The position numbers and the translations under genes were made by a program. This document shows, piece by piece, positions 39,612 through 62,015 of a stretch of 64,000 bases of DNA (position 1 is the stretch's first letter; the number at the start of each line of letters is the position of its first letter). Source of the stretch: Shinella pollutisoli (GTDB lineage Bacteria; Pseudomonadota; Alphaproteobacteria; Rhizobiales; Rhizobiaceae); NCBI RefSeq assembly GCF_024609765.1, contig NZ_JANFDG010000004.1, forward strand, positions 124,001-188,000. The letters are read 5' to 3'. Below the pieces are notes generated by a model that saw only the letters and a program-made list of their open reading frames with translations, made no database searches and had not been told where the DNA came from.

Positions 39612-39683
39612 GGCTGCCTCCTTTGCGAACTGACTGCCGGAAGGCTAGCGACCGGTAATGTTGACCGAAAGGACAGTCTTGTG

Positions 39684-39701: not shown

Positions 39702-39738
39702 TGGACAATATGCCCAGCCCTAATGTGAATTCGGACAG

Positions 39739-40179: not shown

Positions 40180-40369
40180 TCGGTTCACGCACGCCGACGC
40201 GCCATTGGGCCTCGCCATGTGAGGCGATGCCGGCGGTTCACGCGTGCGAAGAGGGATGCGGAATGCTTCCGCGCGGGCTGTGGGCTCGCACAGCGCCCCG
40301 CCGCGCAAGGCTGCCGCGGCGATCTTCAGGATCGCGTTCGGCACGGACGAAGCTCATCCTGCCCGGCCT

Positions 40370-40399
40370 CAGGCCCTGCCGCTGCAAAAACAGGGCCTG
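40370..40399. terminator. Hairpin between convergent Lrp and ABC ATPase genes
   Basis: CAGGCCCTG (40370-40378) and CAGGGCCTG (40391-40399) form a perfect 9-bp stem with a 12-base loop (AAAAA within). It lies in the 262-base gap between two gene ends facing each other. It may stop transcription from either side. The rest of this gap shows nothing recognisable. Confidence 0.5.
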
Positions 40400-40441
40400 G
40401 TTTCCGGATCGGGCATCGCCGCCGCCGGCCCCCGCCACATA

Positions 40442-42150: not shown

Positions 42151-42170
42151 AGCAAGTTCCTCCGCGAAGA

Positions 42171-42194
42171 GAGGCCCGGCAACGGCCAGGCCTC
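42171..42194 (-). terminator. Intercistronic hairpin after the amino-acid-binding-protein gene
   Basis: GAGGCC-C-GGC (42171-42180) pairs with GCC-A-GGCCTC (42185-42194) around AACG, with a single mismatch. It follows the binding-protein stop by 16 bases on the minus strand and precedes the permease start. It is weaker than the other four such hairpins in the window. Confidence 0.5.
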
Positions 42195-42210
42195 ATGACG
42201 CCGAATTCGG

Positions 42211-43053: not shown

Positions 43054-43085
43054 CCTTAATTCCCCATTATCTGGTTGAGCATTCA

Positions 43086-43105
43086 TCCAGCTCCGCGGAG
43101 CTGGA
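43086..43105. promoter_or_regulatory. Perfect 20-bp palindrome before the amino-acid-binding-protein gene
   Basis: TCCAGCTCCG followed by CGGAGCTGGA, with no spacer. It lies in the 61-base gap between the amidinotransferase-fold gene (stop 10 bases away) and the binding-protein gene. As RNA it folds to an 8-bp stem with a CGCG loop. As DNA it is a full two-fold operator shape. It could be an Lrp-type site, an mRNA processing/attenuation stem, or both. Confidence 0.5.
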
Positions 43106-43114
43106 CAACGAGCC

Positions 43115-44760: not shown

Positions 44761-45495
44761 ATGAAAACGGACGCTTCAAATCACACTGGATACGATCTCC
44801 TGCTGACCGGATTTCCCGCCCGCACGGAGCGTGGCTTCCTTGGATGGAGCACGACGGTTCTTTTGCGGACGACAGCCGGATATGCGCTCTTCGATACCGG
44901 GACCGCCGGGGACCGTCCCGGGCTTCTCAGGGCGCTGGCGGCGAGAGGCATTCGCAACGGCGATATCAGGACGATCATTCTCTCGCATCTGCATTTCGAC
45001 CATGTGGCGAATGCCGAATGCTTCCCGCAGGCCGAGTTTCTGCTCCATGAGACGGAACGGAACTATTTTGACGATCATGGCGCGGCCGATGCCGCCGTTC
45101 CCCTGTTTCTCGCGGAAACCCTGTTGCGAAAGCCCCGGCTCCGTCTGATATCCGGGGAGCCGGAAATCTTGCCGGGGATCCGCGTTCTTCGCACCCCCGG
45201 CCATACCGGCGGCCATATTTCGCTTTCATTGACCGTCGACGGTAAGCAGGTCGTGCTCGCGCAGGATGCGCTCAAGCATCGCGGCGAGACCGTCTCGGAA
45301 ACCTTGGCCGGGGCCTTCGACGCCGAAGCCGCGCGCAAAAGCGTCGACCGCATCCTGACGATGGCCGACGTGATCGTTCCCGGGCATGACGTACCGCTGG
45401 AACGCGTCGACGGCGGCTTCATGCCCGTGTCCGCCAGCCATGAAAGGATCGAGATCCTGCCGGACGGCCGATCCTATGCCCTGACGGTCCAGTAA
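44761..45495 (+). CDS. Metallo-beta-lactamase-fold hydrolase, lactonase-like
   Basis: A 244-residue cytosolic metallohydrolase. The zinc motif HLHFDHV and later His in TPGHTGGH, Asp in AQDALKHRG and His in VPGHDVP complete a two-metal site. The general pattern is that of N-acyl homoserine lactonases (AiiA/AttM) and related enzymes. It may open a lactone or hydrolyse an ester in the amino-acid route. A role in quenching quorum signals is possible, though not shown. Its last 22 bases overlap the convergent LysR gene. Confidence 0.82.
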   Translation: MKTDASNHTGYDLLLTGFPARTERGFLGWSTTVLLRTTAGYALFDTGTAGDRPGLLRALAARGIRNGDIRTIILSHLHFDHVANAECFPQAEFLLHETERNYFDDHGAADAAVPLFLAETLLRKPRLRLISGEPEILPGIRVLRTPGHTGGHISLSLTVDGKQVVLAQDALKHRGETVSETLAGAFDAEAARKSVDRILTMADVIVPGHDVPLERVDGGFMPVSASHERIEILPDGRSYALTVQ

Positions 45496-46382
45496 CCCGG
45501 CTGCGAATAGGCGCTCTTCAGCGTCTCGGCGAAAAGCCTTGCCGACTTCAGCGGCCTGTCCCGGGGATAGACGGCGGTGATGTCGAAGCTCGGCAGCGCG
45601 TAGTCGTCGAGGACGGTCACCAGGCGGCCGTCGGCGATTTCGGCGCCGATTTCCCAGGTCGACCGCCAGGCGAGCCCCAGCCCGTCGCGGGCCCAGCGGA
45701 TCAACGAGTCGGCATCGTTGCAATCGATCGTGCCTTCCACCTTCACGGAGACGGGCTTGCCGTTCTCCTGGAAAAGCCATTCGCGGTGCAGGCCGGCCCG
45801 CAGATTGACGCCGAGGCAATTGTGCCGCGCCAGGTCCTCCAGGGTCCGGGGCGTGCCGAACCGCTCGAAATAGGCCGGCGTCGCACAGACCACACGCTTG
45901 TTGCTCAGAAGCTTGGTCGTCACGAAACGCGGATCGATGACGTTGCCGATGCGGATGCAGAGATCGTATTCGGCGGTCGTCGGATCGGCATAGTCGTTGG
46001 AGAGATTGAAGGAGAGCTGCACGTTCGGATGGGCGGCAAGGAAGGCCCCGGCATGCACGGCGACGTGGTGCCTCCCGAAATGCGGCGGCGCGAGAACGGT
46101 CAGACGTCCCGTCACCTGCATGATGTCGGGGAACATCTCCGCCTCGCGGACGTCGATCTCGGTGACGAGTTCCTGGCAATGCTTCAGGAAGAAGACGCCC
46201 TGCTCCGTCAGGGACAGATGCCGGGTGGTGCGGTGAAGCAGCCGGATGCCGAGCCGCCGTTCCAGGCTGTCAATATGCCTGCCGATCATGGAGGCGGTGA
46301 TGCCCTCCTTGATGCCCGCCGCCGTCAGAGACCCTTCCTTGACGACGGCGAGGAAGGCCCGCATTTCCTTGTAACGGTTCAC
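45474..46382 (-). CDS. LysR-family transcriptional regulator (tandem copy 1)
   Basis: A 302-residue LysR protein. The helix-turn-helix is MRAFLAVVKEGSLTAAGIKE with ASMIGRHIDSLERRLGIRLL, and the effector domain starts at RLTVLAPPHFGRHHVAVH. The GTG start overlaps the stop of the next LysR gene (GTGA). Both proteins have 302 residues and parallel blocks such as HNCLGVNLRAG/HNCLAFNEYGG and LVTVLDDYALPSFDITAVYP/LVTVLDDYMPPVYDVTAVYP. They are therefore tandem duplicates that may work as a mixed dimer or control different promoters. Confidence 0.88.
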   Translation of the reverse strand: MNRYKEMRAFLAVVKEGSLTAAGIKEGITASMIGRHIDSLERRLGIRLLHRTTRHLSLTEQGVFFLKHCQELVTEIDVREAEMFPDIMQVTGRLTVLAPPHFGRHHVAVHAGAFLAAHPNVQLSFNLSNDYADPTTAEYDLCIRIGNVIDPRFVTTKLLSNKRVVCATPAYFERFGTPRTLEDLARHNCLGVNLRAGLHREWLFQENGKPVSVKVEGTIDCNDADSLIRWARDGLGLAWRSTWEIGAEIADGRLVTVLDDYALPSFDITAVYPRDRPLKSARLFAETLKSAYSQPGYWTVRA

Positions 46383-47287
46383 GACGCCTCCCAGTAGCCC
46401 GGCCGGGCATAGACGGTTCGCAGCCATTCGAGGAGCAGGCCGATCTTTGCGGGAAGGTGCGGCTGCACCGGATAGACCGCGGTCACGTCGTAGACCGGCG
46501 GCATGTAATCGTCGAGGACGGTCACGAGCGTTCCGGCCGCCAATTCGGCGGCGACCTCCCACCGCGAACGCCAGCCGATTCCCAGGCCTTCGCGCAGCCA
46601 CTGCGCCAGGACCTCCCCGTCGTTGCACGACAACACCCCCGCCGCCCGGACGGTGATCGGCCGGTCCTCGACCAGGAAATGCCAACCGCGCGGCTGGCCG
46701 CCGTATTCGTTGAACGCCAGGCAATTGTGATGCGCGAGATCGGCCGGAACGAGCGGAACGCCACGCTCGCCGAGATAGCCGGGCGTCGCGCACAGGACGG
46801 CCTGATTGGTCGCAAGCCGGACCTGGACGAGGCTCGTGTCGATCACCGGGCCGAGCCGGATCGCCACCTCGTAGCCCTCGCGAACCAGATCCGTGATGTG
46901 ATCGCTGAGATTGAGGGAGACGCGCACGTCGGGGTTCTCGCGCATGAAGGGCGGAAGATGGGGCGCGACATGGCGCCGCCCGAACCCTGCCGGCGCGGAT
47001 ACGATCAGATGGCCGGTCGCATACTCCCTTCCGTCCGACACCAGCCGCTCGGCGGTTTCGAGGCGCTGCAGGATCCCCGTGCAATGCCTGTGGAATTCCT
47101 CGCCCTGCGGCGTGAGGCCGAGCTTGCGGGTGGACCGCACCAGCAGGATCCCGCCCAGCCGCTCCTCGATCTGGCTGATGCGCCGGCCGATGATGGCGGG
47201 CGTCAATCCGAGTTTCCGCGCGGCGCCGGCAAAGCTCCGCTCGGCGACGACGGCCACGAAGGTTTCGATCTCGCGAAGCTTGTCCAC
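46379..47287 (-). CDS. LysR-family transcriptional regulator (tandem copy 2)
   Basis: A 302-residue LysR protein: IETFVAVVAERSFAGAARKL and TPAIIGRRISQIEERLGGIL make the helix-turn-helix, and HLIVSAPAGFGRRHVAPHLP opens the effector domain. The GTG at 47287 was taken as start because AGGAT is 7 bases before it; the longer in-frame extension is AT-rich promoter DNA. It faces the peptide-type ABC operon at 47452 and is its likely regulator together with copy 1. A 17-bp dyad lies 18 bases upstream. Confidence 0.88.
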   Translation of the reverse strand: MDKLREIETFVAVVAERSFAGAARKLGLTPAIIGRRISQIEERLGGILLVRSTRKLGLTPQGEEFHRHCTGILQRLETAERLVSDGREYATGHLIVSAPAGFGRRHVAPHLPPFMRENPDVRVSLNLSDHITDLVREGYEVAIRLGPVIDTSLVQVRLATNQAVLCATPGYLGERGVPLVPADLAHHNCLAFNEYGGQPRGWHFLVEDRPITVRAAGVLSCNDGEVLAQWLREGLGIGWRSRWEVAAELAAGTLVTVLDDYMPPVYDVTAVYPVQPHLPAKIGLLLEWLRTVYARPGYWEAS

Positions 47288-47304
47288 GGCTGATCCTATA
47301 CTCT

Positions 47305-47321
47305 CAGTACAGAATGAACTG
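47305..47321. promoter_or_regulatory. Dyad upstream of the tandem LysR genes
   Basis: CAGTACA-GAA-TGAACTG matches in 6 of 7 arm positions. It lies 18 bases before the LysR start in an AT-rich divergent region. It is a plausible LysR-type site controlling both the regulators and the binding-protein operon. Confidence 0.45.
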
Positions 47322-47451
47322 CATTTTTTGCTTCTTATCAACCAGAAAGTTTAGGTCTAGCTTTCCTTGCGAAAGTGACGACGGCCCGATGCGGCGCCGC
47401 CGGAACTTTGCGGGTGGGAGGCACCCGCTCGCCAACAACGGGAGGAATGTT

Positions 47452-48963
47452 GTGAAGATCCACAGATTGATTATGGGGCTGGGCGTGGCCGGCATGCTTG
47501 CAAGCCCGTCCCATGCCCAGGACAAGTCCGGCGATATCACCATCGTGCTGTCATCCGCCGTCGACGTCGTCGAACCGTGCCATATGAACTCGACGGGCTA
47601 CATAGGCCAGGTTCTCAAGGCCAACGTGGTCGAGACGCTGACCCGCATGGATCCCGCCACCAGCGAGATCAAGCCCAACCTCGCCACGGAATGGAAGCAG
47701 ATCGATCCGCAGACCTGGCAGATCAAGCTGCGCGAGGGCGTGAAATTTCAGGACGGCACCGATTTCAATGCCGACGCGGTGGTCGCGGCGCTCGACCGGC
47801 AGTTCAGCCCCGAGCTCCAGTGCCGCGACACCATCCGCCTGTTCGCCAAGACGACCATCGAGGCGAAGGCTCTCGACCCGCACACCGTCGAGATCAAGAC
47901 CAGCGCGCCCATGCCGCTGATGCCGACTACGCTGTCGCAGATCGGCATGACGGCGCCGGGCACCAGCACCACGGAAGCCACGAAATCGCCCGTCGGCACG
48001 GGTCCGTACACCTTCACGAGCTGGGATCCGGCCAGCAATCTGGTCCTGACCCGCTTCGACGGCTATTGGGGCGACAAGCCGCAAGTCCGCCAGGCGACCT
48101 ATGTGTGGCGTGAGGAACCGGCGCTGCGTGCCTCCATGGTCAAGGTCGGCGAGGCCGATCTCGGGCTCCAGATCGCGCCCCAGGACGTCGATCCGCAGAT
48201 GGACGTCGGCTATCTCAATGCCGATACGAGCCGCATCCGCATCTTCATGGACAAGGCGCCGCTCGACGACGTCCGCATCCGCAAGGCGCTCAACTTGGCT
48301 TTCGACCGCAGCGCCTTCGTCGGCACCATCATGAGCCCCGACGCCCTGCCCGCCAGCCAATACATGCTGCCGAGCGTCAGCGGCTACGACGACAGCCTGA
48401 AGCCGTGGCCCTACGATCCGGAACAGGCGAAGGCCCTTGTCGAGGAGGCCAGGGCCGACGGCGTTGCGGTCGACACGCCGATCGACCTCTTCGGCAGCCA
48501 GTTCATGCAGGCCAACCTCGACGAAATGCTCCAGACGCTCGTGCAGGGCTGGCAGGAGGCGGGCCTCAACGTGCAGATCCGGATGGTCGACAAGATCCAG
48601 CATTCCGCCATGCGCCGTAAGCCCTATCCGACGGATCGCGGCCCGACCATGGTGCACGAGCTGCACGACAACACGGCCGGTGACGCGTTCTTCACGATGA
48701 TGGTCTACTACACCTCGGAAGGCGCGCTCTCCAACATTTCCGATCCGAAGCTCGATGCCGTCCTCGAGGAGGCCAGCGTCTCGACCGGCGACAAGCGCCG
48801 TTCGCTCTTCCAGCAGGCCAACCGGACGATCCAGCAGGACGTCGTTCCCGATATCATGCTGTTCCACATGGTCAGCTACATGCGCATCGGGCCGCGCGTC
48901 AGCTTCAAGCCGGATTTCACCACCGGCGGCCAGCTCGAGCTTGCGGCGATCAGCCTGAAGTGA
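47452..48963 (+). CDS. Peptide-type ABC transporter substrate-binding protein (family 5)
   Basis: A 503-residue DppA-family periplasmic protein. A GTG start with GGGAGG 7 bases upstream gives a normal signal peptide (HRLIMGLGVAGMLASPSHA). Marks are IKPNLATEWKQIDPQTWQIKL and FQDGTDFNADAVVAALDRQF. Family-5 proteins also carry sugars and oligosaccharides in rhizobia, and the enzymes in this operon are sugar-type. The ligand is therefore more likely a glycoside or acidic oligosaccharide than a peptide. A strong hairpin follows 15 bases after the stop. Confidence 0.91.
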   Translation: MKIHRLIMGLGVAGMLASPSHAQDKSGDITIVLSSAVDVVEPCHMNSTGYIGQVLKANVVETLTRMDPATSEIKPNLATEWKQIDPQTWQIKLREGVKFQDGTDFNADAVVAALDRQFSPELQCRDTIRLFAKTTIEAKALDPHTVEIKTSAPMPLMPTTLSQIGMTAPGTSTTEATKSPVGTGPYTFTSWDPASNLVLTRFDGYWGDKPQVRQATYVWREEPALRASMVKVGEADLGLQIAPQDVDPQMDVGYLNADTSRIRIFMDKAPLDDVRIRKALNLAFDRSAFVGTIMSPDALPASQYMLPSVSGYDDSLKPWPYDPEQAKALVEEARADGVAVDTPIDLFGSQFMQANLDEMLQTLVQGWQEAGLNVQIRMVDKIQHSAMRRKPYPTDRGPTMVHELHDNTAGDAFFTMMVYYTSEGALSNISDPKLDAVLEEASVSTGDKRRSLFQQANRTIQQDVVPDIMLFHMVSYMRIGPRVSFKPDFTTGGQLELAAISLK

Positions 48964-48978
48964 TCCCCGACCCGAACG

Positions 48979-49002
48979 GCGGAGGCGGCATCCCGCCTCC
49001 GC
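48979..49002 (+). terminator. Intercistronic GC hairpin after the family-5 binding-protein gene
   Basis: GCGGAGGCGG (48979-48988) and CCGCCTCCGC (48993-49002) form a perfect 10-bp stem around CATC. It lies between the binding-protein stop and the propeller gene. No T-run, so stabiliser or attenuator rather than full stop. Confidence 0.7.
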
Positions 49003-49044
49003 GATCCCTGACCGATGCGATCCGCTCAAACGGAAGGTTCAAGC

Positions 49045-50130
49045 ATGCCTATCTACAAGTGGGACAACAAGCCCTATGAAGGTCCTCACGTCCTGGACAA
49101 CCCGCCGCCATTCCATGAGAAGCTCTGCGACTACGGCGCGCGTCCCTACTGGTCGCCGGACGGCAAGCGCATCGCCTTCGTCGAAAAGGCCTATGGCGAC
49201 GTCCACGAGATCGACCTCGAAACGCGGCGGATCCGCAACCTGACGGGCGATCTCGGCGAACACCACTCGTTCCTCCGGGTGCTTTTCCTGCCGAACGGCG
49301 ATTACCTCCTGATCGGGCCGAAGGAATTCAAGGACCACCACACCAGCCGCTACGTGGAGTCGGAGCTCTGGTTCATGGACCGCGAGGCGAAGACCCCGCC
49401 CCGGCCCTTCGGGCTGACGATCTTCGAGGGCATCGGCGTTTCGGCGATCGCCAACCGGATCACCTATTCCCGGCACGGCGAACACGATCCCCGTCTCGGA
49501 AAGTTCGAGGACTTCGAGTGCTACGTGTCGGAGATCGAGTACGGGGCGGACGGCCCGAAGATCGGCGCGACACGCCCGATCTATCGAAACGTCACGGGAT
49601 TGCGCCGTCCCGAACCGCAGGATTTCCGCCACGACGACACGGAGGTCATCATGGCGGAATATATCGGCCCGCGCGATCGCAGCACCACCTGGAAGACCCA
49701 GACCCGGGGCATCGACCTGAAGACCCTCGACGTCCGCACCTATATCGACGAGCCGCTCACCCACAACGAATGCGAGGGCATCTTCCCCGACCAGGAGCAT
49801 ATCTGCCTGGAATCCTCCTGCGACTTCGTCGACCAGTTCCCGCCGATCGATCTCTGGAAGCTCAAGCTCGACGGTTCCGGGCGCCGCGTGCGCATGACGC
49901 GGTTCTTCGACCGCGCCCCCTGGCGCGCGAGCAATTCGAACGTCAGCCCGGACGGCAGGTGGCTCGCCTTCATGGTCAACACCTATACGAGCGAGCCGGG
50001 CTTCGGCATGGGCATCGGCCTCATGGATCTCGAGGCCTGGGAAAAGAGCGAATACGCCGCGGAATGGGAGACGCCGGAGGACCGCGCCGCGATAAGGAAA
50101 CGGGACGGCACCTTTGCGGAGATCAAGTAG
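49045..50130 (+). CDS. TolB-like beta-propeller protein of unknown function
   Basis: A 361-residue protein without a signal peptide. Two PD40-type repeats are clear: PYWSPDGKRIAFV near residue 35 and SNVSPDGRWLAFM near 305, with weaker blades between, so a six- or seven-bladed propeller is likely. It has many His, Asp and Arg residues in turns (LGEHHSFLRV, HEDPRLGKFEDFEC-like region, ECEGIFPDQEHICLESSCD). Intracellular propellers of this kind include oligogalacturonide lyases (PL22), and the gene sits in an operon with a glycosidase-like protein and an acid-sugar dehydratase. A lyase or sugar-binding role is therefore worth testing. GGAAGG precedes the chosen ATG. Confidence 0.7.
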   Translation: MPIYKWDNKPYEGPHVLDNPPPFHEKLCDYGARPYWSPDGKRIAFVEKAYGDVHEIDLETRRIRNLTGDLGEHHSFLRVLFLPNGDYLLIGPKEFKDHHTSRYVESELWFMDREAKTPPRPFGLTIFEGIGVSAIANRITYSRHGEHDPRLGKFEDFECYVSEIEYGADGPKIGATRPIYRNVTGLRRPEPQDFRHDDTEVIMAEYIGPRDRSTTWKTQTRGIDLKTLDVRTYIDEPLTHNECEGIFPDQEHICLESSCDFVDQFPPIDLWKLKLDGSGRRVRMTRFFDRAPWRASNSNVSPDGRWLAFMVNTYTSEPGFGMGIGLMDLEAWEKSEYAAEWETPEDRAAIRKRDGTFAEIK

Positions 50131-50143
50131 GCCCTAGATCCGG

Positions 50144-50180
50144 GGGACGTCCTTCGGCCCGGGAGGCCGGCGGACGTCCC
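50144..50180 (+). terminator. Compound hairpin between propeller and permease genes
   Basis: GGGACGTCC (50144-50152) pairs with GGACGTCCC (50172-50180). Inside, CGGCC and GGCCG pair around CGGGA. It lies 13 bases after the propeller stop and ahead of the permease genes. It would separate high expression of the first two genes from the transporter membrane genes. Confidence 0.65.
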
Positions 50181-50218
50181 TGCAGGAATGAACGGACGAA
50201 GGGAAAGGGAGGAGCGCC

Positions 50219-51136
50219 TTGCGCGGCTATATCGGATCCAGAATGGCGCACAGCGCCATTTCCATGGTGGGACTTGTCGTCCTCGTCTTCTTTCTGGCGC
50301 GGCTGACCGGCAATCCGGTGGACATCTACCTGCCGATCGAAGCCTCGGCCGAGGCCAGGACCGCCTTCTCCGAGGCGCACGGCTTCGACGATCCGTTGAT
50401 CGTGCAGTTCTGGCATTTCGTGCGGGATCTCGCCCGTCTCGATTTCGGCATGTCGCTGCGCCAGGACCGGCCGGTCCTCGATCTCGTGCTGGCAGCCTTC
50501 CCGACGACCCTGCTGCTGGCCTTGTGCGCCATGTTCATCGCCCTCGTCGTCGCGATCGTCTCGGGCGCGCTCGCGGCCCAGAGGCCGAACGGCGTTCTCG
50601 ACCGTTTCGTCAACGTCATCTCGCTTGCCGGCGCAAGCCTGCCGAATTTCTGGCTGGCGATCGTCGCCGTGCTCGTCTTCGCCGTCGGGCTGCGATGGCT
50701 GCCAACGTCGGGCACGGGCGGCTTCGTCCACTGGATCCTGCCGGTCATGGTTCTCTCCGTTCGTCCCTGCGGCCTGATCGCCCAGGTCGTGCGCGGCTCG
50801 ATGATCAGCGCCATGTCGTCCGCTTACGTGAAGACGGCGCGGGCCAAGGGCGTGCGCCGCACGACGATCATCTTCGTCCATGCCCTGCGCAACGCGATGC
50901 TTCCGGTCATCACCGTCGCCGGCGACCAGGCGACGGGAATGATCAACGGCGCCGTGGTCGTCGAGGTCATCTTCGGGCTGCCGGGGATCGGCAAGCTGAT
51001 GATCGACTCGATCCAGTATCGCGATTTCGCCATGGTGCAGGGCGGCGTCATCATCACCGCCGTCGCCATCTTCGCCCTCAACATCGCGATCGACCTTTCC
51101 TATGCGCTGCTCGATCCGCGCATCCGCTACAGCTGA
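50219..51136 (+). CDS. Peptide-type ABC transporter permease, DppB type
   Basis: A 305-residue permease with the DppB layout: short basic N-terminus, first helix SMVGLVVLVFFLARL, an EAA-type loop YVKTARAKGVRRTTIIFVHAL and the ending DPRIRYS. The start is TTG, supported by AAAGGGAGGAG just upstream and by the length of the N-terminus in the family. A later ATG would cut into it. The rare start codon and upstream hairpin both suggest modest expression. Confidence 0.9.
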   Translation: MRGYIGSRMAHSAISMVGLVVLVFFLARLTGNPVDIYLPIEASAEARTAFSEAHGFDDPLIVQFWHFVRDLARLDFGMSLRQDRPVLDLVLAAFPTTLLLALCAMFIALVVAIVSGALAAQRPNGVLDRFVNVISLAGASLPNFWLAIVAVLVFAVGLRWLPTSGTGGFVHWILPVMVLSVRPCGLIAQVVRGSMISAMSSAYVKTARAKGVRRTTIIFVHALRNAMLPVITVAGDQATGMINGAVVVEVIFGLPGIGKLMIDSIQYRDFAMVQGGVIITAVAIFALNIAIDLSYALLDPRIRYS

Positions 51137-51145
51137 GGCCGCGAC

Positions 51146-52063
51146 ATGAGCACCATCGTCACCCCCGGCAGCCGGCCGAACCGATCCGCCGTCCACCGCT
51201 ACCTGCTGCTCCTGTGGCACGACAAGTTCGCGACGGCGGCGGTCATGTTCCTGCTGCTGGTGTTCTTCGCCGCCCTGTTCGGGCCTGCTCTCTTCGAGAG
51301 TGCTTCCAACAGGATCAATCTGCTTGCCCGAAACGCCCCGCCGCTGTCGTTCCAGCACGGCTGGACCTTCATCCTCGGGGCCGATTCGCTCGGGCGGTCG
51401 ATCCTTCTGCGCCTGATCGTCGGGGCGCAGAACACGATGCTGCTGGCGGCATCCGCGGTCGTCTGCTCGCTTCTCGTCGGATCGTTTCTCGGCTTCATCG
51501 CCGGATACCGCAACGACTGGACAAGCGCGGTGATCATGCGGGTCGCCGACGTGGTGATGAGCTTTCCCTCGCTCCTCCTGGCGCTGATCGTCCTCTACGT
51601 CCTGACGCCCGGCATCGCCAACGTCATCCTCGTGCTGGCGATCACCCGCATTCCGATCTATCTGCGCACGACCCGGGCCGAGGTGCTGGAGGTGCGCGAA
51701 CGGACGTTCGTGACGGCGGCGCGGATCATGGGAGCCTCGCCCCGCCGGCTGATCTGGCGGCATATCCGGCCGACCGTCACGCCGACCCTGATCACCATCG
51801 CGACGCTCGAATTCGCCTTCGTGATGCTGTCGGAATCGAGCCTGAGCTTCCTCGGTCTCGGCATCCAGCCGCCGGCCTTCACCTGGGGAGCCATGGTCGC
51901 GCAGGGCCAGAGCTACCTCAGCACCGCCTGGTGGGTCGCCTTCTGGCCCGGCGTCGCGATCACGCTCACGGCGATGTCGCTCAATCTCTTCGCGAACTGG
52001 CTGCGGATCGTCGGCGATCCGGTGCAGCGCTGGCGGCTGGAATCCAGAAAGAAGACCTCATGA
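51146..52063 (+). CDS. Peptide-type ABC transporter permease, DppC type
   Basis: A 305-residue permease with the family block GADSLGRSILLRLIVGAQNT, six membrane segments and the loop FVTAARIMGASPRRLIWRHI. It pairs with the DppB-like protein encoded 9 bases upstream. Its stop overlaps the ATPase start (ATGA). Confidence 0.92.
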   Translation: MSTIVTPGSRPNRSAVHRYLLLLWHDKFATAAVMFLLLVFFAALFGPALFESASNRINLLARNAPPLSFQHGWTFILGADSLGRSILLRLIVGAQNTMLLAASAVVCSLLVGSFLGFIAGYRNDWTSAVIMRVADVVMSFPSLLLALIVLYVLTPGIANVILVLAITRIPIYLRTTRAEVLEVRERTFVTAARIMGASPRRLIWRHIRPTVTPTLITIATLEFAFVMLSESSLSFLGLGIQPPAFTWGAMVAQGQSYLSTAWWVAFWPGVAITLTAMSLNLFANWLRIVGDPVQRWRLESRKKTS

Positions 52064-53682
52064 CCGGGAATAACAGGCATCTCGTCGAGGTACGAAACCT
52101 CTCCGTCGAATTCCACACCCAGGACGGCACGGTCCAGGCCGTGCGCAATGTCAGCTGGCATATCGATCGCGGCGAGACGCTCGCCATCCTGGGCGAGAGC
52201 GGTTCGGGCAAGAGCGTCAGCTCGTCGGCGCTGATGGGCCTGATCGACATTCCTCCCGGCCGCATCACATCCGGCGAGGTCCTCTATCGCGGCGAGGATC
52301 TGCTCAAGGCCTCCTATGAACGGCAGCGGGAGCTGAACGGCTCGAAGATCGCGATGATCTTCCAGGACACCCTCGCCGCCCTCAATCCCGTCTATCCGGT
52401 GGGCTGGCAGGTGGCGGAGACGTTTCGCGCCCACGGTGTCGGTCACAAGGAGGCGGATTCCAGGGCGCTGGAGCTCCTGGAGCGGGTCGAGCTGCCCAAT
52501 GCGCGGGCGCGCTTCAACGACTATCCGCACCAGTTCTCCGGCGGCCAGCGGCAGCGCATCATGATCGCGATGGCGATCGCGCTCGACCCGGACCTCCTGA
52601 TCGCCGACGAGCCGACGACGGCGCTCGACGTCTCCGTCCAGGCCCGGATCCTGCGCCTCCTGAAGGACCTCCAGCGCGAGCGGGGCATGGGCCTGCTGAT
52701 GATCACCCACGACCTCGGCATCGTCGAGGGGCTTGCCGACCGCGTCGCCGTTATGAACGGCGGGGAGATCGTCGAGACCGGACCGGTGGGCCAGGTCTTC
52801 AACGCGCCGGAACATGCCTATACCCGCAACCTCCTGAATGCGGTTCCGGGCAGGCAGGGTTTCCCGGCATCCGCCCCGTCGGACGAACGCAGGGACACGC
52901 TGATCGCCGTCAGGGAACTGTCGAAAGGCTATCCGAGCTCTTCGCGCTCACCGGTCGTCATGGCCCTGGACAGGGTGTCCTTCACCCTCGCGCGCGGGGA
53001 GACGCTCGGCGTCGTCGGCGAATCCGGCTCCGGCAAGTCGACGCTCGCCCGCACGCTGCTCGGCCTCGAAAAGGCATCGAACGGCACGGCATCCTACAAG
53101 GACCGCGACATGCTGCAGCCGACATCGTCCGACCGGACGGTCCTCCAGCGCCAGATCCAGATGGTCTTCCAGGACCCGACCGCATCGTTGAACCCCCGCA
53201 TGACCGTCGAGGAGATCATTTCGGAACCCTGGGCCATCCACCGGGAGATCCTGCCGAAGAAGGATTGGAAGGGACGGGTCGGCGATCTCCTCGAACAGGT
53301 CGGCCTGTCGAGGGAGCATGCCCAGCGCTACCCGCATCAGTTCTCCGGCGGCCAGCGGCAGCGCATCGCCATCGCGCGGGCACTCGCCCTGCAACCGGAG
53401 GTCATCATCTGCGACGAGGCGGTCTCCTCGCTGGACGTGTCGGTCCAGGCGCAGATCATCGCGCTCCTGAAGAGCCTCAAGGACGAGCACGGCCTTTCCT
53501 ACATCTTCATCGCCCACGACCTGCCCGTGGTCCGCAGCTTCGCCGACCGGGTGCTCGTCATGCGGAAAGGCCAGATCGTCGAGCAGGGCAGGACCGAAGA
53601 CCTCTTCACCAATCCGCAGCACCCCTACACCCGCGAACTCCTGCAATCCGACCCCGTGCTCGGCGGCCCTGTGGCCGCCTAG
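52060..53682 (+). CDS. Fused dipeptide-type ABC ATPase (two ATPase domains)
   Basis: A 540-residue protein joining DppD-like and DppF-like ATPases in one chain. Domain 1 (about residues 5-260) has Walker A GESGSGKSV, signature FSGGQRQR, Walker B LLIADEPTTAL and switch His MITHDLGIV. Domain 2 (about 285-535) has [28 protein letters not shown] and FIAHDLPVV. In domain 2 the usual DEP of Walker B reads DEA. Such fusions (YliA/GsiA type) serve glutathione or sugar transporters. The single gene contrasts with the two separate ATPases of the 30-37 kb operon. Confidence 0.92.
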   Translation: MTGNNRHLVEVRNLSVEFHTQDGTVQAVRNVSWHIDRGETLAILGESGSGKSVSSSALMGLIDIPPGRITSGEVLYRGEDLLKASYERQRELNGSKIAMIFQDTLAALNPVYPVGWQVAETFRAHGVGHKEADSRALELLERVELPNARARFNDYPHQFSGGQRQRIMIAMAIALDPDLLIADEPTTALDVSVQARILRLLKDLQRERGMGLLMITHDLGIVEGLADRVAVMNGGEIVETGPVGQVFNAPEHAYTRNLLNAVPGRQGFPASAPSDERRDTLIAVRELSKGYPSSSRSPVVMALDRVSFTLARGETLGVVGESGSGKSTLARTLLGLEKASNGTASYKDRDMLQPTSSDRTVLQRQIQMVFQDPTASLNPRMTVEEIISEPWAIHREILPKKDWKGRVGDLLEQVGLSREHAQRYPHQFSGGQRQRIAIARALALQPEVIICDEAVSSLDVSVQAQIIALLKSLKDEHGLSYIFIAHDLPVVRSFADRVLVMRKGQIVEQGRTEDLFTNPQHPYTRELLQSDPVLGGPVAA

Positions 53683-53730
53683 CCGCCCCGCCGTCCGATC
53701 ATCCAGCATGCCGCTCCAACGGAGAATTCA

Positions 53731-55863
53731 ATGATGCCGCATTCCGATCACAGTTGGCTCCGGTCCTCGCTGGTGATGATCATGACGCTTCGCGAGAGCG
53801 ATGCGGCGAGCTGGGACACCGAGGAGATGGCCGATTTCGCCAAATCCTTCTCGCTCGATGCGCTGGGGTTCTCGGTGGGCGGGATCATGGCCTTCTACCC
53901 GACCGACATTCCGCTCCACCCGCGCGCGGCGGCGCTCGGCGAGCGGGACCTGGCGGCGGAGATGATCGCTTCGCTTGCGAGGCGCGGCATCAGGCCGATT
54001 GCCCGGATCGACCCCAGCATGGCCTCGCGCGCGCTTTATGCCGAGCGGCCGGAATGGTTCGTTCAGGACAAGGCGGGAGCGCCAGTGGAAGTCCACGGCC
54101 ACTTCGTCACCTGCCCGAACGGGGGTTATTACAACGACTTCATGATCCGGGTCGTCGAGGAAATCCTGGCGCGTTATCCCTTCGACGGCCTGTGGGCGAA
54201 TGCCGCGCAATTCTCCCCCTGGCACACGCCGCAATGCCATTGCGGCGTGTGCCAGCAGAAGTTCCGGGCCAGGACCGGCAGGCCCATTCCCGACGAGGAC
54301 TGGGACAGCGACGTCTGGCGCCGGTACAACGAGTGGCGCTACGAATGCATCGCCGAATGGAATGCCCGCGTCCAGGCGGCGAAGACGCGCGTGCGGCCGT
54401 CCTGCGCCTGGATGCCGCTGAGCCAGGTGGCGGAATCGTGGGATCATTCCCGCGTCGGCGGCTGGGACCTCGACTATACCGAGCCGCATCAGGACGGCAT
54501 CGTCCTCGAGGCGCAGCGGCGCTACGCCAACATGTTCTGGCCGGGACTCGAGGCGCGCTACATGCGCAGCCTCGCGCCGGAAAAGGGCGGCGGGATCACG
54601 ACGAGCTACTTCCTGCCCTGGTGGCGGTTCTACCGCGTGCCGATCGCCGAGAACCGGATGTGGGCCGGCCAGATCATGGCGCAGGGCGTGATGCCCTGGA
54701 TCCACGTGACCGGCTATCAGCAGGAGCAGTTCGACCATCGCGGGCTCGATGGCCTTCGCGCGCTCTTCGCACGGTTCGACCGCAACCGCCCGACCTATAT
54801 GGAAGCGGCGTCCGCCGCGCAGGTCGCGCTCGTCTATTCCCGCCACAGCCTCGACAATTTCGGCCACAAGGACCCGGCGGCCCGCTACCTCGATCATTTC
54901 CGCGGCGCCTACAACGCCATGATGGACCAGCGGCTCCCCTTCGACATCCTCAGCGGCAACCGGCTCACGGCGGAGACGCTGGCGAACTACAAGGCCGTGG
55001 TGCTTCCGAACGCCGCCTGCCTGTCGGATGCCGCCTGCGCGGCGCTCGAAACCTATGTCCGCAACGGCGGCCATCTCGTCTCGACCTATCGCAGCGGCGA
55101 CTTCGACGAGACGGGCGCCCCCCGCGAAACGACGCTTCTCGGCCGGCTGACCGGCGCGAAGGCGACCGGCGTCACGTGGAAGAACCTGCGGGCGGCCTAT
55201 GCCGCGATCCGCGATCCGTCGTCGCCGCTGCTGGCCGGGTTCGACGGGACGGACCTGCTGCCGGTGGCCGGCGACATCACCTTCGTACGCACCGGCGACC
55301 AGCCGGCGATCGCGGCGCCCCTGACCCTCGTGCCGCCGGTGGAAGGGGAGGTCGGGAGCGGGATTTCGGTGCCGGAATTCAACCGGATCGATCACGTCAC
55401 CGATTATCCGATGATCCTGGACCGCCGCGTCGGGGAGGGCCGCATCGTCCACTTCCCCTGGCAGCCGGACCTGATCGGCTTCCGCTACGGCTTCAGGGAT
55501 CTCTTCCGGCTCCTCGCCAACGCGATAAAGCAGGCGGAGGGCTGGCGCGACATCGTGACCGTCGAGGGACCGGGCCTGATCGACCTCTCCGTCATGGAAA
55601 AGAGCGACCGGCTCGTCGTCTCGCTCGTGAACTTCTCCGCTCCGGGCAGCTTCAACACCGGGCAGCGACGCATCATCGAGGAACTGATCCCCCTCCACGA
55701 CCTCGAAATCACCGTCGACGTGCCGTCATCCTTCACAAGGGAGCGCGTCCGGCTCGTCTTCGCGGAGCGCGAAATCCCCGTGACACGTCTGGACGGCAGC
55801 CGCATCCGCTTCACCCTGCCGCGTCTGGAGGCCATGGAAACCATCGAAATGCTCTTCGGATAG
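53731..55863 (+). CDS. GHL6-like glycoside hydrolase with beta-galactosidase trimerisation-type domain
   Basis: A 710-residue cytosolic protein. Residues about 1-350 look like a TIM barrel of the hypothetical glycosyl hydrolase 6 type: RPIARIDPSMAS, FDGLWANAAQF, then a CHCGVCQQKF cysteine cluster usual in that group, and GWDLDYTEPHQDG with acidic residues suited to catalysis. Residues about 370-560 resemble the beta-galactosidase trimerisation domain (YKAVVLPNAACLSDAACAAL, YVRNGGHLVSTYRSG). The last 150 residues are beta-rich. No signal peptide, so it should cut an imported glycoside. No member of this group with a known substrate comes to mind. Confidence 0.75.
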   Translation: MMPHSDHSWLRSSLVMIMTLRESDAASWDTEEMADFAKSFSLDALGFSVGGIMAFYPTDIPLHPRAAALGERDLAAEMIASLARRGIRPIARIDPSMASRALYAERPEWFVQDKAGAPVEVHGHFVTCPNGGYYNDFMIRVVEEILARYPFDGLWANAAQFSPWHTPQCHCGVCQQKFRARTGRPIPDEDWDSDVWRRYNEWRYECIAEWNARVQAAKTRVRPSCAWMPLSQVAESWDHSRVGGWDLDYTEPHQDGIVLEAQRRYANMFWPGLEARYMRSLAPEKGGGITTSYFLPWWRFYRVPIAENRMWAGQIMAQGVMPWIHVTGYQQEQFDHRGLDGLRALFARFDRNRPTYMEAASAAQVALVYSRHSLDNFGHKDPAARYLDHFRGAYNAMMDQRLPFDILSGNRLTAETLANYKAVVLPNAACLSDAACAALETYVRNGGHLVSTYRSGDFDETGAPRETTLLGRLTGAKATGVTWKNLRAAYAAIRDPSSPLLAGFDGTDLLPVAGDITFVRTGDQPAIAAPLTLVPPVEGEVGSGISVPEFNRIDHVTDYPMILDRRVGEGRIVHFPWQPDLIGFRYGFRDLFRLLANAIKQAEGWRDIVTVEGPGLIDLSVMEKSDRLVVSLVNFSAPGSFNTGQRRIIEELIPLHDLEITVDVPSSFTRERVRLVFAEREIPVTRLDGSRIRFTLPRLEAMETIEMLFG

Positions 55864-55919
55864 CCGCGCCAAGGCTCGGAACGACCGGCGCATCCGATCA
55901 CGGACAGGAAGGAATCAAA

Positions 55920-57026
55920 GTGGGCACCATCATCAGATCGGTCGAGGCCTTTCAGGTCACCTGGGTCGAGAACGAGCCGCCGGGACGCAGGACGGCGATC
56001 GTGCGCGTGACGACGGAGGACGGGCTGGTCGGCTACGGCGAGGCCTCCCCGATGCTGGGCGGCGAGCATTCGCTCGGCATCGTGCGGGATTTCGCGGCTT
56101 CGCTGACCGGTCTGGACGCGCTGGACCAGGCCGTCATCCACGACAGGCTGCTGCACAAATACGTAAAGCTCGGCCCGGAAGGCGCGGTGACGGGGGCGCT
56201 TGCCGCGCTGGACATCGCGCTCTGGGACATCAAGGGCAAGTATTTCGGCCTGCCGGTCTACAAGCTCCTCGGCGGGGCATGGCGCACCGAGCTGCCGTTC
56301 TATTCGTCGGTCGGAAGAAATGCCGGGCGCACCGTGGACGAGACCGTGCGGGCGGTCGAGGAGCGGCTGAGATCCGAGCGTCCCGCCGCCGTCAAGATCC
56401 GCTGGGACGGCGACCGCACGCGGCAGGACTACGATATTCCAGGCGACATCGCGAAGGCGAAGGCGGTGCGCAAGCTGGTCGGAGACGACTTCCCCCTCGC
56501 CTTCGACGCCAACAACCAGTATTCCGTCGGCGGCGCCATCCGTGTCGGCCGCGCGCTGGAAGAGCTCGGCTATATCTGGTTCGAGGAGCCGGTCCAGCAC
56601 TACAACGTCCGGGCGATGGGCGAGGTCGCGCAGCGTCTCGACATCACCGTCTCGGCCGCCGAGCAGTCCTATACCACGCAGGCGGTCGTCGACATGATCA
56701 ATGCCGGCGTGCGCATGGTGCAGCCCGACATCGTCAAGATGGGCGGCATCACCGGCCTGATGCAGTGCGCCGCCATCTGCTTCGCCCACGGCGTCGAACT
56801 CGTCCCGCACCAGACCCAGCCGACGATCGCCCATGCGGCGAACCTGCACCTGCTCGCGACCCTGATGCACAATACCAAGCCCGCGGAATTCTCCGATCCG
56901 TCGACGCGCATGCACGTCGCCTTCGCCAATCCCCCGATCCCGGAGAACGGGATGTTCAAGGTGCCGTCGGGACCGGGTCTCGGGCTGATCGTCCACGATG
57001 CCGAACTGGATAAAAGGCGGAGCTGA
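55920..57026 (+). CDS. Enolase-superfamily dehydratase (mandelate racemase/muconate-lactonising group)
   Basis: A 368-residue enzyme that abstracts a proton next to a carboxylate. Catalytic positions can be read: VKIRW with K159 and R161, metal ligands D196 (FDANNQY), E222/E223 (WFEEP) and E248 (AAEQS), then PDIVKMGGITG and the His of VPHQTQP (H297). This set is usual for acid-sugar dehydratases and cycloisomerases. Start is GTG with AGGAAGGA 6 bases upstream. Being last in the operon after a glycosidase, it probably dehydrates or isomerises the acidic sugar released. Exact substrate unknown. Confidence 0.87.
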   Translation: MGTIIRSVEAFQVTWVENEPPGRRTAIVRVTTEDGLVGYGEASPMLGGEHSLGIVRDFAASLTGLDALDQAVIHDRLLHKYVKLGPEGAVTGALAALDIALWDIKGKYFGLPVYKLLGGAWRTELPFYSSVGRNAGRTVDETVRAVEERLRSERPAAVKIRWDGDRTRQDYDIPGDIAKAKAVRKLVGDDFPLAFDANNQYSVGGAIRVGRALEELGYIWFEEPVQHYNVRAMGEVAQRLDITVSAAEQSYTTQAVVDMINAGVRMVQPDIVKMGGITGLMQCAAICFAHGVELVPHQTQPTIAHAANLHLLATLMHNTKPAEFSDPSTRMHVAFANPPIPENGMFKVPSGPGLGLIVHDAELDKRRS

Positions 57027-57894: not shown

Positions 57895-58314
57895 TCAGAC
57901 CTCGTCGGCTCCGAGCGCCTTCAGCGCGGCGCGCGCGACGTCGAAGTCCTGCTCGCCCGTGCCGGACCCCACGCCGATCGCTCCCGCGATGACGCCGTCG
58001 AAGCGGATGGGAAGCCCGCCCGGCAGGTGGGTCACCCCGCCCTGTGAGGCGATGCCGGCGGCGAGGCCGAATTCGGCCGTCATGGCGCCGGTCGCGCCGT
58101 TGATGGAGGCGGCGGTCCGCGCCTTTGCGCGCGCGGTGTGCATGCTGAGGTATTTCGCGCCGTCCATCCGGATGCTCGCGATGGTCTCGCCGCTGGTATC
58201 GACGATGAAGATGCATTGCGGGACCTGGATCGCCTTCGCCCGTTCCACGGCGGCGGACAGTGCGTCCAGCGCCGCGTCGGCGGTCAGCGAAATGGTGTTC
58301 CGGAATCTGGGCAT
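57895..58314 (-). CDS. GlcG/HbpS-family heme-degrading-like domain protein
   Basis: A 139-residue single-domain protein (PF03928). Seen are LDALSAAVERAKAIQVPQCI, VDTSGETIASIRMDGAKYLS, the AFTA-like HTARAKARTAASIN and the GGLPIRFDGVIAGAIGVGSGTGEQD end. Members bind heme or small ligands or are found with glycolate and diol metabolism; the function is not fixed. GAGGAG 7 bases upstream sets the start MPRFRNT. It lies between the MFS remnant and the transposon and appears intact. The 182 bases between its start and the transposon end hold no gene. Confidence 0.8.
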   Translation of the reverse strand: MPRFRNTISLTADAALDALSAAVERAKAIQVPQCIFIVDTSGETIASIRMDGAKYLSMHTARAKARTAASINGATGAMTAEFGLAAGIASQGGVTHLPGGLPIRFDGVIAGAIGVGSGTGEQDFDVARAALKALGADEV

Positions 58315-58496
58315 GGGAGGGCTCCTCTTGACTATCGCCACTTTAGGCAACAGGCCTCTCGCCGCGTATCGGTCAAACCGGCAAAAGACCTGATCGATGC
58401 CGGAACAAGTTCGCGGCCCGCCTCCACGCCCACGCAACGGGGATCGGCGTCAAGCCGGACGTCCGCCTGCCGGGACCAGTGTGACCGGGCCTTTTT

Positions 58497-59277: not shown

Positions 59278-62015
59278 GTGGCCCGGCGGACGCTTCTCAA
59301 GCCTCATGATCGACAAGAGCTTTTCGGTATTCCAACTGACGAAGACAGTCTGATCCGTTATTATTCCCTGTCCCCGGCAGATCGACTCGAAATCGAGGTT
59401 CGCCGTCGCGAGCATAACCGGCTCGGATTTGCGTTGCAGCTCTGCCTGATGCGTTATCCTGGCCGCGCGCTTATTGCCAACGAAGCCCTTCCCATGCCGA
59501 TGCTCAGCCATGTTGCGGAGCAAGTCGGAGCCGACCGGGCGTCATTCGAATTGTATGCTCGCCGCGAAGAAACACGCATGAACCACGTCGCGCGCCTGTT
59601 GGGCTATCTTGAAATGAGAAGCCCGACAGGCGAGGATCGACGCGCGGCGCTCCTAGCAGCTATCGAAACAGCTTCAACGACCGACAAAGGAGCGGTGATC
59701 GCAAACGCAATCATCGTCACGTATCGGGAGCGCCGGGTTCTGCTGCCGGTGGCGACCATGATCGAGCGCATGGGGTTGGCAGCGCGCGCAATCGCCGCCG
59801 CCGTGCCGAGGCCGCGCTGATCTCGGATCTCGATCTGGACAAGCTCAAAGCCCTCGATGCCCTGTTGGCTGTTGATCCAGCAATCGGGCAGACGCGCTTC
59901 CATTGGCTTCGTTCCGCTCCCAATGACCATGTTCATCAAACTGATGAGCCGGCTGTTCTCCCAAGGCGAACAACCGGAAAAAGCAGCGTCACATGAACGC
60001 CCGTATGGAAACGTCCAAGGCGCTGCGGCTGTTCCTCGATACGATCGTTGCCTTGCAGGCCGCCAATGATGCCGATGAAGATGCGATCGAGACGGTAAAC
60101 CGGCAAATTGGCTGGCATCGGCTGCTGCAGATCAAGCCCGGTCTCGAGGCGATGGTGGAGAGCGCCAACGCTTCGCCGTTGGTGCTGGCGGCCGAGCAAC
60201 ATGGAAACATCCGCAAGTTCGCCGGCGCGTTCCTTCAGGCATTCACGTTCCGCTCGCGCCGCCGGCACGATCCGCTGCTTGCGGCGGTCGCGACCCTGAA
60301 AATGCTTTATGTGGAGGGACGCCGTGTTCTGCCGGATCGCGTGCCGGTCGGCCATCTAGGTGCGAACGAAAGGAAACTGGTCTTCGAGGATGGCAAGCCG
60401 GATCGGCGGCTTTATGAAATCGCCACCTTCGCTCATTTACGGGACCGGCTGCATTCGCGCGATGTGTGGGTCGAGGGCAGCCGGTCATTCCGACCGATAG
60501 ACGAAGATCTCATGCCGAAGCCGACCTTTGTCGCCCTGAAGGGCAAAGATCAGCTTGGCCTCGGCGTCCAGACCGACTGCGGTGCCTGGCTCGCGGACAT
60601 CCGGGAGATGATGGACGTCAACCTCAAACGGCTGGCCTGGCGCGCCCGTTTCGGCAAGCTCGATGGCGTCAGGATGGAAAACGGCACGTTGATCGTGACG
60701 CCGCATACCAGCGATGTTCCCGCCGCGGCGGAAGCCATCAATGCCGAAATCACGGAGATGTATCCTCTGGTCGAGGTGCCCGATCTCCTGCGGGAAGTGC
60801 ATGAATGGACTGGGTTTGCCGACCAGTTCACCCATGTCCGGACGGGAGATGCGCCTCAGAACATCGCCGCCATGCTGGCCGGCGTGCTTGCCGATGGCAC
60901 GAATCTTGGCCCGAAACGCATGGCGGGGGCGTCGAAGGGGATCAGCGCCCACCAGATCGGCTGGATGCGCAGCTTCCATGCCCGCTCCGAAACCTATCGG
61001 GCCGCGCAGGCCTGCGTTACTGATGCCCATTCCCGTCATCCGCATTCGCAAATCTGGGGTGCCGGCACGACGGCCTCATCCGATGGGCAGTTCTTCCGCG
61101 CCAGCGACCGCGCCGCCAGGCGCAGCAACATCAACCTGCACTATGGCAGCGAGCCGGGCTCGAAGTTCTACAGCGGGCTTTCCGACCAATACGGCTATTA
61201 CAGCATCCTGCCGATCAGCCCGACCGAAAGCGAGGCCGTCTATGTGCTCGACGGCCTGTTCGACCACGACACGATTCTGGAGATCGAGGAGCTGTTCACC
61301 GATACCGGCGGCGCCAGCGATCATGTCTTTGCGCTGTTCTGCCTGATCGGCAAGCGCTTCGCGCCCCGGCTTCGCAATATCAAGGACCGGAAATTCCACA
61401 CCTTCGAGAAGGCCGATAGCTATCCGGCGCTGGCAAATCATATCGGCATGCCGATCAACACCGCTCTCATCATGGAACATTGGGACGAACTCCTGCGTCT
61501 TGCCGCCCCGATCACGGCGCGCACCGTCGCGCCGTCGGCGATCCTCAAGAAGTTCTCCGCGTCGTCGAAATCCAGCGATCTGGCCAAAGCCTTGCGCGAA
61601 CTCGGCCGCATCGAGCGCACCCTGTTCATGATCGAGTGGTATTCCAGCCCAGCTCTACGCCGGCGTTGTCAAGCCGGGCTCAACAAGGGTGAGGCCGCTC
61701 ACAAGCTCAAACACGCCGTCTTTTTCCACGCGGCGAGATCCGTGATCGCTCCTTCGACAGTCAGGCCTTCCGAGCTTCAGGTCTCAACCTGGTGGTCAGC
61801 GCCATCGTCCATTGGAACACCGTCTACCTCAGCCGGGCAACGGCTCATCTGCGCCAGCAAGGCCGAATTATTCCCGATGGGTTGCTAAAACACGTCTCGC
61901 CCCTCAGTTGGGAGCACATAATCTCACCGGCATCTATTCCTGGGACACCGAGCAGCAGATGTCCGAGGGCTTCAGGCCCTTGCGGCTTCCTGGAAAAATC
62001 CTCGGCGCCGCGTGA
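59278..62015 (+). pseudogene. tnpA: Tn3-family transposase tnpA, multiply disrupted
   Basis: A Tn3 transposase can be followed in pieces. The N-terminal domain (RRTLLKPHDRQELFGIPTD) is intact to a shift near 59805, then EAALISDLDLDKLKALDALL is found. About 70 residues seem deleted near 59925, where RFHWLRSAP jumps to TMFIKLM. The catalytic part is good (SSDGQFF, YVLDGLFDHD and the Glu in NKGEAAHKL). Shifts near 61729 and 61916 break the C-terminus ([29 protein letters not shown]). With at least four lesions it is inactive. The start is GTG. Confidence 0.9.

Follow-up and report, generated by a model that had tools for sequence, protein, structure and literature searches.

A conserved import module combining a family-5 ABC transporter with a PD40 beta-propeller and a GHL6 protein in Shinella pollutisoli and other alphaproteobacteria

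Analysis of a 64,000-nucleotide stretch of the Shinella pollutisoli genome (contig NZ_JANFDG010000004.1, positions 124,001 to 188,000; here called the window) revealed a group of genes encoding an ABC importer and several putative enzymes. The group comprises two LysR regulators (LysR1 and LysR2), a family-5 solute-binding protein (SBP), a PD40 beta-propeller (PROP), two permeases (PermB and PermC), a fused double ABC ATPase (ABC2), a protein with GHL6 and Glyco_hydro_42M (GH42M) domains, and an enolase-superfamily protein (ENO) (Table 1). Gene parts were called from the open reading frame (ORF) listing together with Pfam matches, and all genes named in the original prediction for this DNA were found in place. 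A gene encoding an MBL-fold metallo-hydrolase (MBL), which lies next to LysR2, had been overlooked there. The spacing of consecutive plus-strand genes, -4 to 88 bases, resembles that of a single operon. The LysR pair is positioned on the minus strand, divergent from SBP.

Table 1. Features of the import module in the window
Feature	Position in window	Strand	Basis or remark
MBL, MBL-fold metallo-hydrolase	44761..45495	+	PF00753, E 4.8e-20
LysR2, LysR regulator 2	45474..46400	-	63-94% identity in 5 other loci
LysR1, LysR regulator 1	46379..47341	-	56-91% identity in 5 other loci
LysR1/SBP divergent intergenic region	47342..47451		110 bases; likely regulatory
SBP, family-5 periplasmic solute-binding protein, GTG start	47452..48963	+	PF00496 (SBP_bac_5), E 4.7e-67
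PROP, PD40 beta-propeller	49045..50130	+	PD40, E 9.7e-08
PermB, permease B (Opp/Nik type)	50219..51136	+	PF00528
PermC, permease C	51146..52063	+	PF00528
ABC2, fused double ABC ATPase	52060..53682	+	two PF00005 stretches and oligo_HPY
GHL6, GHL6 and GH42M protein	53731..55863	+	GHL6, E 7.1e-17; GH42M, E 2.1e-15
ENO, enolase-superfamily protein, GTG start, accessory	55920..57026	+	MR_MLE N- and C-terminal domains

The species genome collection was scanned for GHL6 with patterns that detect close relatives only; of 18 pattern hits, four loci were confirmed. These belong to Shinella granuli (L002; GHL6 identity of 91%), Ancylobacter mangrovi (L003; 76%), Skermanella stibiiresistens (L004; 75%), and Rhizobium sp. 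P32RR-XVIII (L005; approximately 85 to 86%). A plasmid search with GHL6 added plasmid pShin-03 of Shinella sp. HZN7 (L031; 91%), and the HZN7 PROP was also found independently with a PROP query. The gene order LysR2-LysR1, then divergently SBP-PROP-PermB-PermC-ABC2-GHL6, was identical in 6/6 loci, window included; LysR1 of A. mangrovi was demonstrated by tblastn. Among the core proteins, PROP is conserved best in L002 to L005, with identities of 95, 85, 85, and 92%, compared to 91, 76, 75, and 86% for GHL6. In HZN7, ABC2 (L031 16298-17916) is present as two pieces in different frames without a listed gene, and this copy therefore looks frameshifted. Thus, GHL6 and PROP are fixed partners of the family-5 importer in all six loci. 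The proposal that importer, propeller, GHL6 protein, and enolase form one conserved unit held for the first three; the enolase is exchangeable.

Comparison of the flanking regions revealed that the 10 window genes upstream of MBL have no match over 9 to 11 kb in the S. granuli, Rhizobium, and HZN7 loci, which are the ones compared here since the A. mangrovi and S. stibiiresistens loci extend only approximately 0.4 to 0.6 kb upstream of the block. The nine window genes past ENO have no match in the five other loci. The one exception among the genes of both flanks is an ABC ATPase, which matches by paralogy. With window flanks that are unmatched as far as compared, the block is a discrete unit in different surroundings. 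The two Shinella loci (L002 and L031) have flanks in common and were therefore counted as one event. These results confirm that the core, consisting of the LysR pair, the importer, PROP, and GHL6, is a real, conserved, self-contained import-and-catabolism module. It has probably spread horizontally. The settings of the block differ: in HZN7 it is carried on a repABC plasmid, and in the window it is located approximately 2 kb from a Tn3-type transposase. The latter lies downstream of ENO at 59278-61888 in two separate plus-strand frames (59278-59820, DUF4158 part; 59993-61888, DDE part) and is probably interrupted.

The importer genes have the composition of a family-5 ABC peptide/nickel importer, with an SBP_bac_5 domain, two BPD_transp_1 permeases, and ABC and oligo_HPY domains. 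As in the Opp/Dpp/Nik/Gsi importers, a binding protein and two permeases are accompanied by ATPases with oligo_HPY tails; unlike in those systems, the ATPases of the window are fused. SBP bears a Sec-like signal, as judged by eye. Its nearest solved relatives are 5u4o, GsiB (1uqw), the nickel binder 3t66, DppA, and AccA. SBP did not reach the cut-off of any of the 11 equivalogs listed, and the permeases likewise stayed below every equivalog cut-off listed.

The GHL6 protein is the single GHL6 match of the window genome, lies above the family cut-off, and has no export signal (by eye). The domain had been taken as a group without a known substrate. This does not hold, because GHL6 is a domain of known GH151 alpha-L-fucosidases: an excerpt of Lezyk et al. 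2016 (PMC4723247) reports pfam14871 in the fucosidase Mfuc3, and Mfuc3, Blon_0346, and ALfuk2 are placed in GH151 in a section of PMC10154630. The same section gives D154 as the nucleophile of ALfuk2, E235 as the acid/base residue, and H503 as a contribution of the neighbouring subunit. Doubts whether GH151 members are genuine fucosidases are raised in a passage of PMC8395109. For comparison, 31 distinct alphaproteobacterial GHL6 proteins were collected from the order of the window genome or from named alphaproteobacteria, all identified through their similarity to the window protein or to its neighbours; 17 of them were combined in profile A3. This profile matched ALfuk2 (6tvk) at E 1.1e-32 over three stretches, and beta-galactosidases ranked behind. 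GHL6 and GH42M were detected by Pfam, and the GHL6, GH42M-like middle, and C-terminal parts all align to 6tvk, as expected of the GH151 architecture (ALfuk2 6TVK, Blon_0346, and Mfuc3).

Unlike in GH151, the position of the nucleophile is occupied by asparagine. In both profile alignments, the ALfuk2 Asp at 6tvk chain position 183, which corresponds to native D154 provided that the 29 additional residues represent a tag, pairs with Asn157 of the window protein. This residue is Asn in 31/31 alphaproteobacterial GHL6 proteins, so GHL6 is no ordinary GH151. Other acidic positions are retained (D24, D94, and E549 in 31/31; D335 in 30/31). Position 260 is acidic in 31/31, in a stretch through which 6tvk, with its acid/base residue E235, is not aligned. 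No fucose genes were seen near the window locus. Judged from its sequence, the protein keeps a fold-level likeness to GH151 and an active-site-like pattern. The window protein is 25 to 29% identical to the other alphaproteobacterial clades compared, and the record names of the alphaproteobacterial proteins vary between alpha-amylase family, family 10 glycosylhydrolase, and beta-galactosidase. AlphaFold models of PROP and GHL6, each built from five close orthologues, were too poor for fold comparison (mean pLDDT of 47.4 and 41.5, respectively).

PD40 was the sole Pfam match of PROP at E<=0.001. The protein probably has six blades and carries no export signal, both judged by eye. Alignment of six SPDG-type repeats by eye placed R33, R78, and N297 of blades 1, 2, and 6 at one register and E128, E190, and E242 of blades 3 to 5 at the neighbouring register. 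R33, R78, E190, D193, and E242 are invariant in 8/8 PROP sequences; E128 and N297 are conserved in 7/8. The family is rare. PROP was found in 2/385 genomes of the class (own included), in 2/10 genomes of the small family and order of genome G435, and in 1/398 genomes of a phylum sample, namely the own genome, with at most five candidates scored per genome.

The propeller had been suggested to be a lyase like PL22. PL22 lyases are cytosolic, and the His ligands of their channel have a metal role. Like PL22 oligogalacturonate lyase, PROP is a PD40-type beta-propeller without an export signal; unlike it, PROP has neither a profile match nor the channel-register histidines. PF14583 (PL22) was absent from four PROP proteins even at E<=10. 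An hhalign comparison of PROP with one PL22 protein (L064) gave a probability of 20.8 over 39 columns, corresponding to one PD40 blade. Against solved structures, the PROP profile matched TolB (1.8e-7) and peptidase propellers, with no PL22 among the 25 structures listed at E<=1. At the PL22 channel register, aligned by eye, L064 has His in three blades versus Arg, Arg, Gly, Pro, Cys, and Asn in PROP. The PL22 assignment was rejected on the basis of Pfam, the profile-profile comparison, the PDB profile search, and the channel register. The Arg/Glu residues of the PROP channel, compared to the His residues of PL22, suggest a channel-type propeller enzyme frame with different chemistry. SMP-30/gluconolactonase, paraoxonase, and DFPase are six-bladed lactonases with a carboxylate-bound metal. 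By analogy, the acidic residues of PROP at one register of blades 3 to 5 could line a metal site; unlike in these lactonases, Arg is present in blades 1 and 2, and no sequence match to them was found.

Searches of plasmid records with PROP matched, besides HZN7, 10 Sphingobium Tom records, and the same 10/10 records also matched GHL6. They represent close strains and were thus counted as one event. In pTomTYG73a, the one record examined for adjacency, the PROP and GHL6 relatives lie side by side in convergent orientation, 48 bases apart. Neighbouring genes of TomTYG73 are annotated as hydroxypyruvate reductase (glycerate-2-kinase-like, below the cut-off), hydroxypyruvate isomerase, 2-hydroxy-3-oxopropionate reductase, and L-lactate permease. 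By eye, export signals of Sec-like and twin-arginine-like type are recognisable at the N termini of both Sphingobium proteins, versus none in the window copies. PROP and GHL6 therefore seem to change compartment together, as seen in one Sphingobium lineage with signals read by eye, and such a joint move is good evidence of a shared substrate. A tentative possibility is that GHL6 and PROP form a two-enzyme unit of new chemistry, in which a GH151 fold without the Asp nucleophile and a catalytic propeller with an Arg/Arg/Glu/Glu/Glu/Asn channel would have been redeployed together with the uptake route between the periplasm (Sphingobium) and the cytosol (Rhizobiaceae and others). Apiose, mannosyl-/glucosylglycerate, and tomatine were considered as substrates and set aside. 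The excerpt of the Sphingobium tomatine paper (PMC10653915) contains no mention of GH151, TomTYG73, or TonB.

The genes around the core vary. An ENO orthologue is present in 3/6 loci and is 95% identical in both Shinella loci. In A. mangrovi and S. stibiiresistens, an enolase of another subgroup (34 and 32% identical to ENO, respectively) is sited between LysR1 and SBP. The enolase is an exchangeable accessory outside the core. Past the module, the Rhizobium locus has a third LysR gene and then another family-5 importer, which is accompanied by a separate enolase-superfamily protein (L005 13229-19786). ENO has the MR_MLE N- and C-terminal domains, and its closest solved relatives are 3n4e/4dwd (E 1.2e-152, residues 7 to 366), with which it has the KIRWDGDRTR stretch and the FDANN, WFEEP, QPDIVK, and PHQ motifs in common. 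As in the MR subgroup of the enolase superfamily, ENO has the Asp/Glu/Glu metal ligands and the Asp-His dyad, in motifs that 3n4e also contains. A search by PDB code among open-licence papers found no function for 3n4e/4dwd. The S. stibiiresistens enolase groups with the solved 3t8q, 3u4f, 3tcs, and 3t9p. Against the dehydratase models listed (talarate/galactarate, gluconate, arabinonate, galactonate, rhamnonate, and mannonate), ENO reached at best 154.8 bits at a cut-off of 500, and the S. stibiiresistens enolase was likewise well under the cut-off of the named dehydratase models.

A similar exchange was observed for the hydrolase. MBL is present in 4/6 loci, namely, the window, both Shinella loci (81 to 82% identity), and Rhizobium (55%). 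In A. mangrovi and S. stibiiresistens, a PcaD-type enol-lactonase directly follows GHL6 (304.6 and 307.3 bits; cut-off, 255.85). MBL was absent from these two genomes at E<=1e-20 (0/2, versus 2/2 for the S. granuli and Rhizobium genomes). The complementary distribution of two unrelated proteins, with PcaD looked for beside GHL6 in the MBL-bearing loci, suggests a single step in which a lactone or ester is hydrolysed. MBL is thus probably a lactonase or esterase.

More distant relatives were found in other contexts. Distant GHL6 genes occur in 23/397 genomes of the order (own included), and 17/24 of these loci, taken with a flank of approximately 1.5 kb, hold a relative of the importer permease or ATPase. 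On Agrobacterium plasmid pAt1D1460, GHL6 is accompanied by 2-oxo-tetronate isomerase and tartronate-semialdehyde reductase, both above the cut-off, which suggests short acid sugars. A recurrent cluster (L034 8679-19610, L038 2425-13515, and L039 1295-14344) consists of LacI, a large binding protein, GHL6, permeases, an ATPase, 2-oxo-tetronate/hydroxypyruvate isomerase, and tartronate-semialdehyde reductase and is a second GHL6 pathway. In Neorhizobium galegae (L033, 10826-20355), GHL6 lies with a family-5 binding protein, permeases, an MBL relative (58%), two amidohydrolases, and a phosphorylase-superfamily protein; the one amidohydrolase that was scored is TRZ/ATZ-like, below the cut-off. ENO orthologues (66 to 82% identity) occur in 9/397 genomes of the order (own included). 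All nine neighbourhoods examined contain an Opp-type importer, and an enolase resembling acid-sugar dehydratases thus accompanies this importer class in further genomes; GHL6 is present in 2/9. CoA-transferase III accompanies ENO in L055 to L059, and MaoC and thioesterase do so in L056, L057, and L059; these families were read on representatives (L057 proteins for all three) and assigned to the other loci from protein clusters. Other ENO neighbourhoods contain aldehyde and Fe-alcohol dehydrogenases, and the Fe-alcohol dehydrogenase beside the orthologue in L061 matches lactaldehyde reductase among others, below the cut-off. An HbpS-like protein is encoded near ENO in the window (57895-58437, minus strand), and in L057, L059, and L062, HbpS-like genes (42 to 45% identical to the window copy) are located at most approximately 8 kb from the ENO orthologue, which may be coincidence.

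We propose, with even confidence for and against, that the module takes up a small glycoconjugate and cleaves it in the cytosol, with subsequent lactone or ester opening and acid dehydration. The divergent LysR regulators would control the family-5 binding protein and the Opp-type ABC importer, through which the glycoconjugate would reach the cytosol. The fixed pair of GHL6 and PROP would act on it there, or on its first product: GHL6 would cleave a glycosidic bond, and PROP may be a second hydrolase, a lactonase, or an isomerase that uses its Arg/Glu-lined propeller channel. The product would contain a lactone or ester that is opened by MBL or, in other hosts, by the PcaD-type lactonase, and an enzyme of the enolase superfamily, not the same in every host, would dehydrate or isomerise the resulting hydroxy acid. 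From the observed gene content, order, and conservation, the exchange of the last two genes, and the loss of the nucleophile, we infer the substrate class, every reaction, and the order of the steps. The general idea of the original prediction holds, whereas PL22, the claim on GHL6, and a dehydratase as a fixed component do not.

Several observations weigh against this pathway. With Asn in place of the nucleophile, GHL6 may be a non-glycosidase or inactive. Peptides, nickel, and opines are also among the ligands of family-5 binding proteins, as the names of the solved SBP relatives indicate. The five loci outside the window were found via GHL6, so the conservation counts are conditional on it. 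Genomes G435 and G777 contain PROP, and a search of 10 genomes of their order, run without a positive control, detected no GHL6. PROP was not found among the ORFs of the nine ENO neighbourhoods. No enolase adjoins GHL6 in the Rhizobium locus, in which a 28% relative lies in the second importer cluster 6.5 kb on. The neighbours of GHL6 in N. galegae hint at a nucleoside-like substrate.

This last locus, in which GHL6, importer, and MBL have two amidohydrolases and a phosphorylase-superfamily gene as neighbours, is also the starting point of the strongest alternative, in which the module salvages a non-carbohydrate conjugate (nucleoside-like, opine-like, or an aromatic ester) and GHL6 is a non-canonical hydrolase or a binding scaffold. 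The above-cut-off enol-lactonase in A. mangrovi and S. stibiiresistens, the CoA-transferase III, MaoC, and thioesterase genes beside ENO orthologues, and the presence of AccA and other opine or peptide binders among the SBP relatives are consistent with it. However, GHL6 with GH42M is a glycosidase architecture, and another GHL6 clade adjoins sugar-acid enzymes (2-oxo-tetronate isomerase and tartronate-semialdehyde reductase). Taken together, we regard such salvage as rather unlikely, with a substantial residual chance.

A fucose-type pathway, in which GHL6 would be a GH151-like alpha-L-fucosidase, MBL or PcaD would open fuconolactone, and ENO would be an L-fuconate-type dehydratase, is doubtful to a greater degree. 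It would account for the domain that GHL6 has in common with GH151 fucosidases such as Mfuc3 and for the match of profile A3 to 6tvk. In the oxidative L-fucose route, the next steps are a lactonase and then an enolase-type dehydratase, and the lactaldehyde reductase match in L061 would fit as well. Yet the GH151 nucleophile D154 is Asn in 31/31 proteins, no fuconate model is among the NCBIfam matches of ENO, whose scores lie far under the cut-off of the dehydratase models listed, no fucose dehydrogenase was seen in the module, and PROP would be left unexplained.

The import of a uronic-acid oligosaccharide with PROP as a PL22-like lyase is very improbable. Family-5 importers can carry oligosaccharides, and PROP is a propeller like PL22 with one PD40 blade in common, but PF14583, PL22 structures among the profile matches, and channel His residues are all missing, and no uronate-pathway gene was recognised in the module. 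A chance assembly of a peptide importer with unrelated enzymes, to which the differing enolases might point, is just as improbable given a core block that recurs in 6/6 loci of four named genera and the window genome and that common flanks do not account for, as far as tested.

Further upstream in the window, a minus-strand cluster (37622-44092) encodes two dimethylargininase/arginine-deiminase-like proteins, a member of the ornithine cyclodeaminase family, a family-3 binding protein, and an ABC ATPase. It probably serves methylarginine/arginine-type catabolism and is separate from the module.

A search by title among open-licence papers found no description of the module, which is weak evidence of absence. 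The substitution of the GHL6 nucleophile argues for an activity or mechanism different from that of GH151, and the binding protein is a direct handle on the substrate of the module. Characterisation of the module would assign a first function to a rare family of propellers and perhaps to two subgroups of enolases as well, for which structures but, to the extent covered here, no functions are available.

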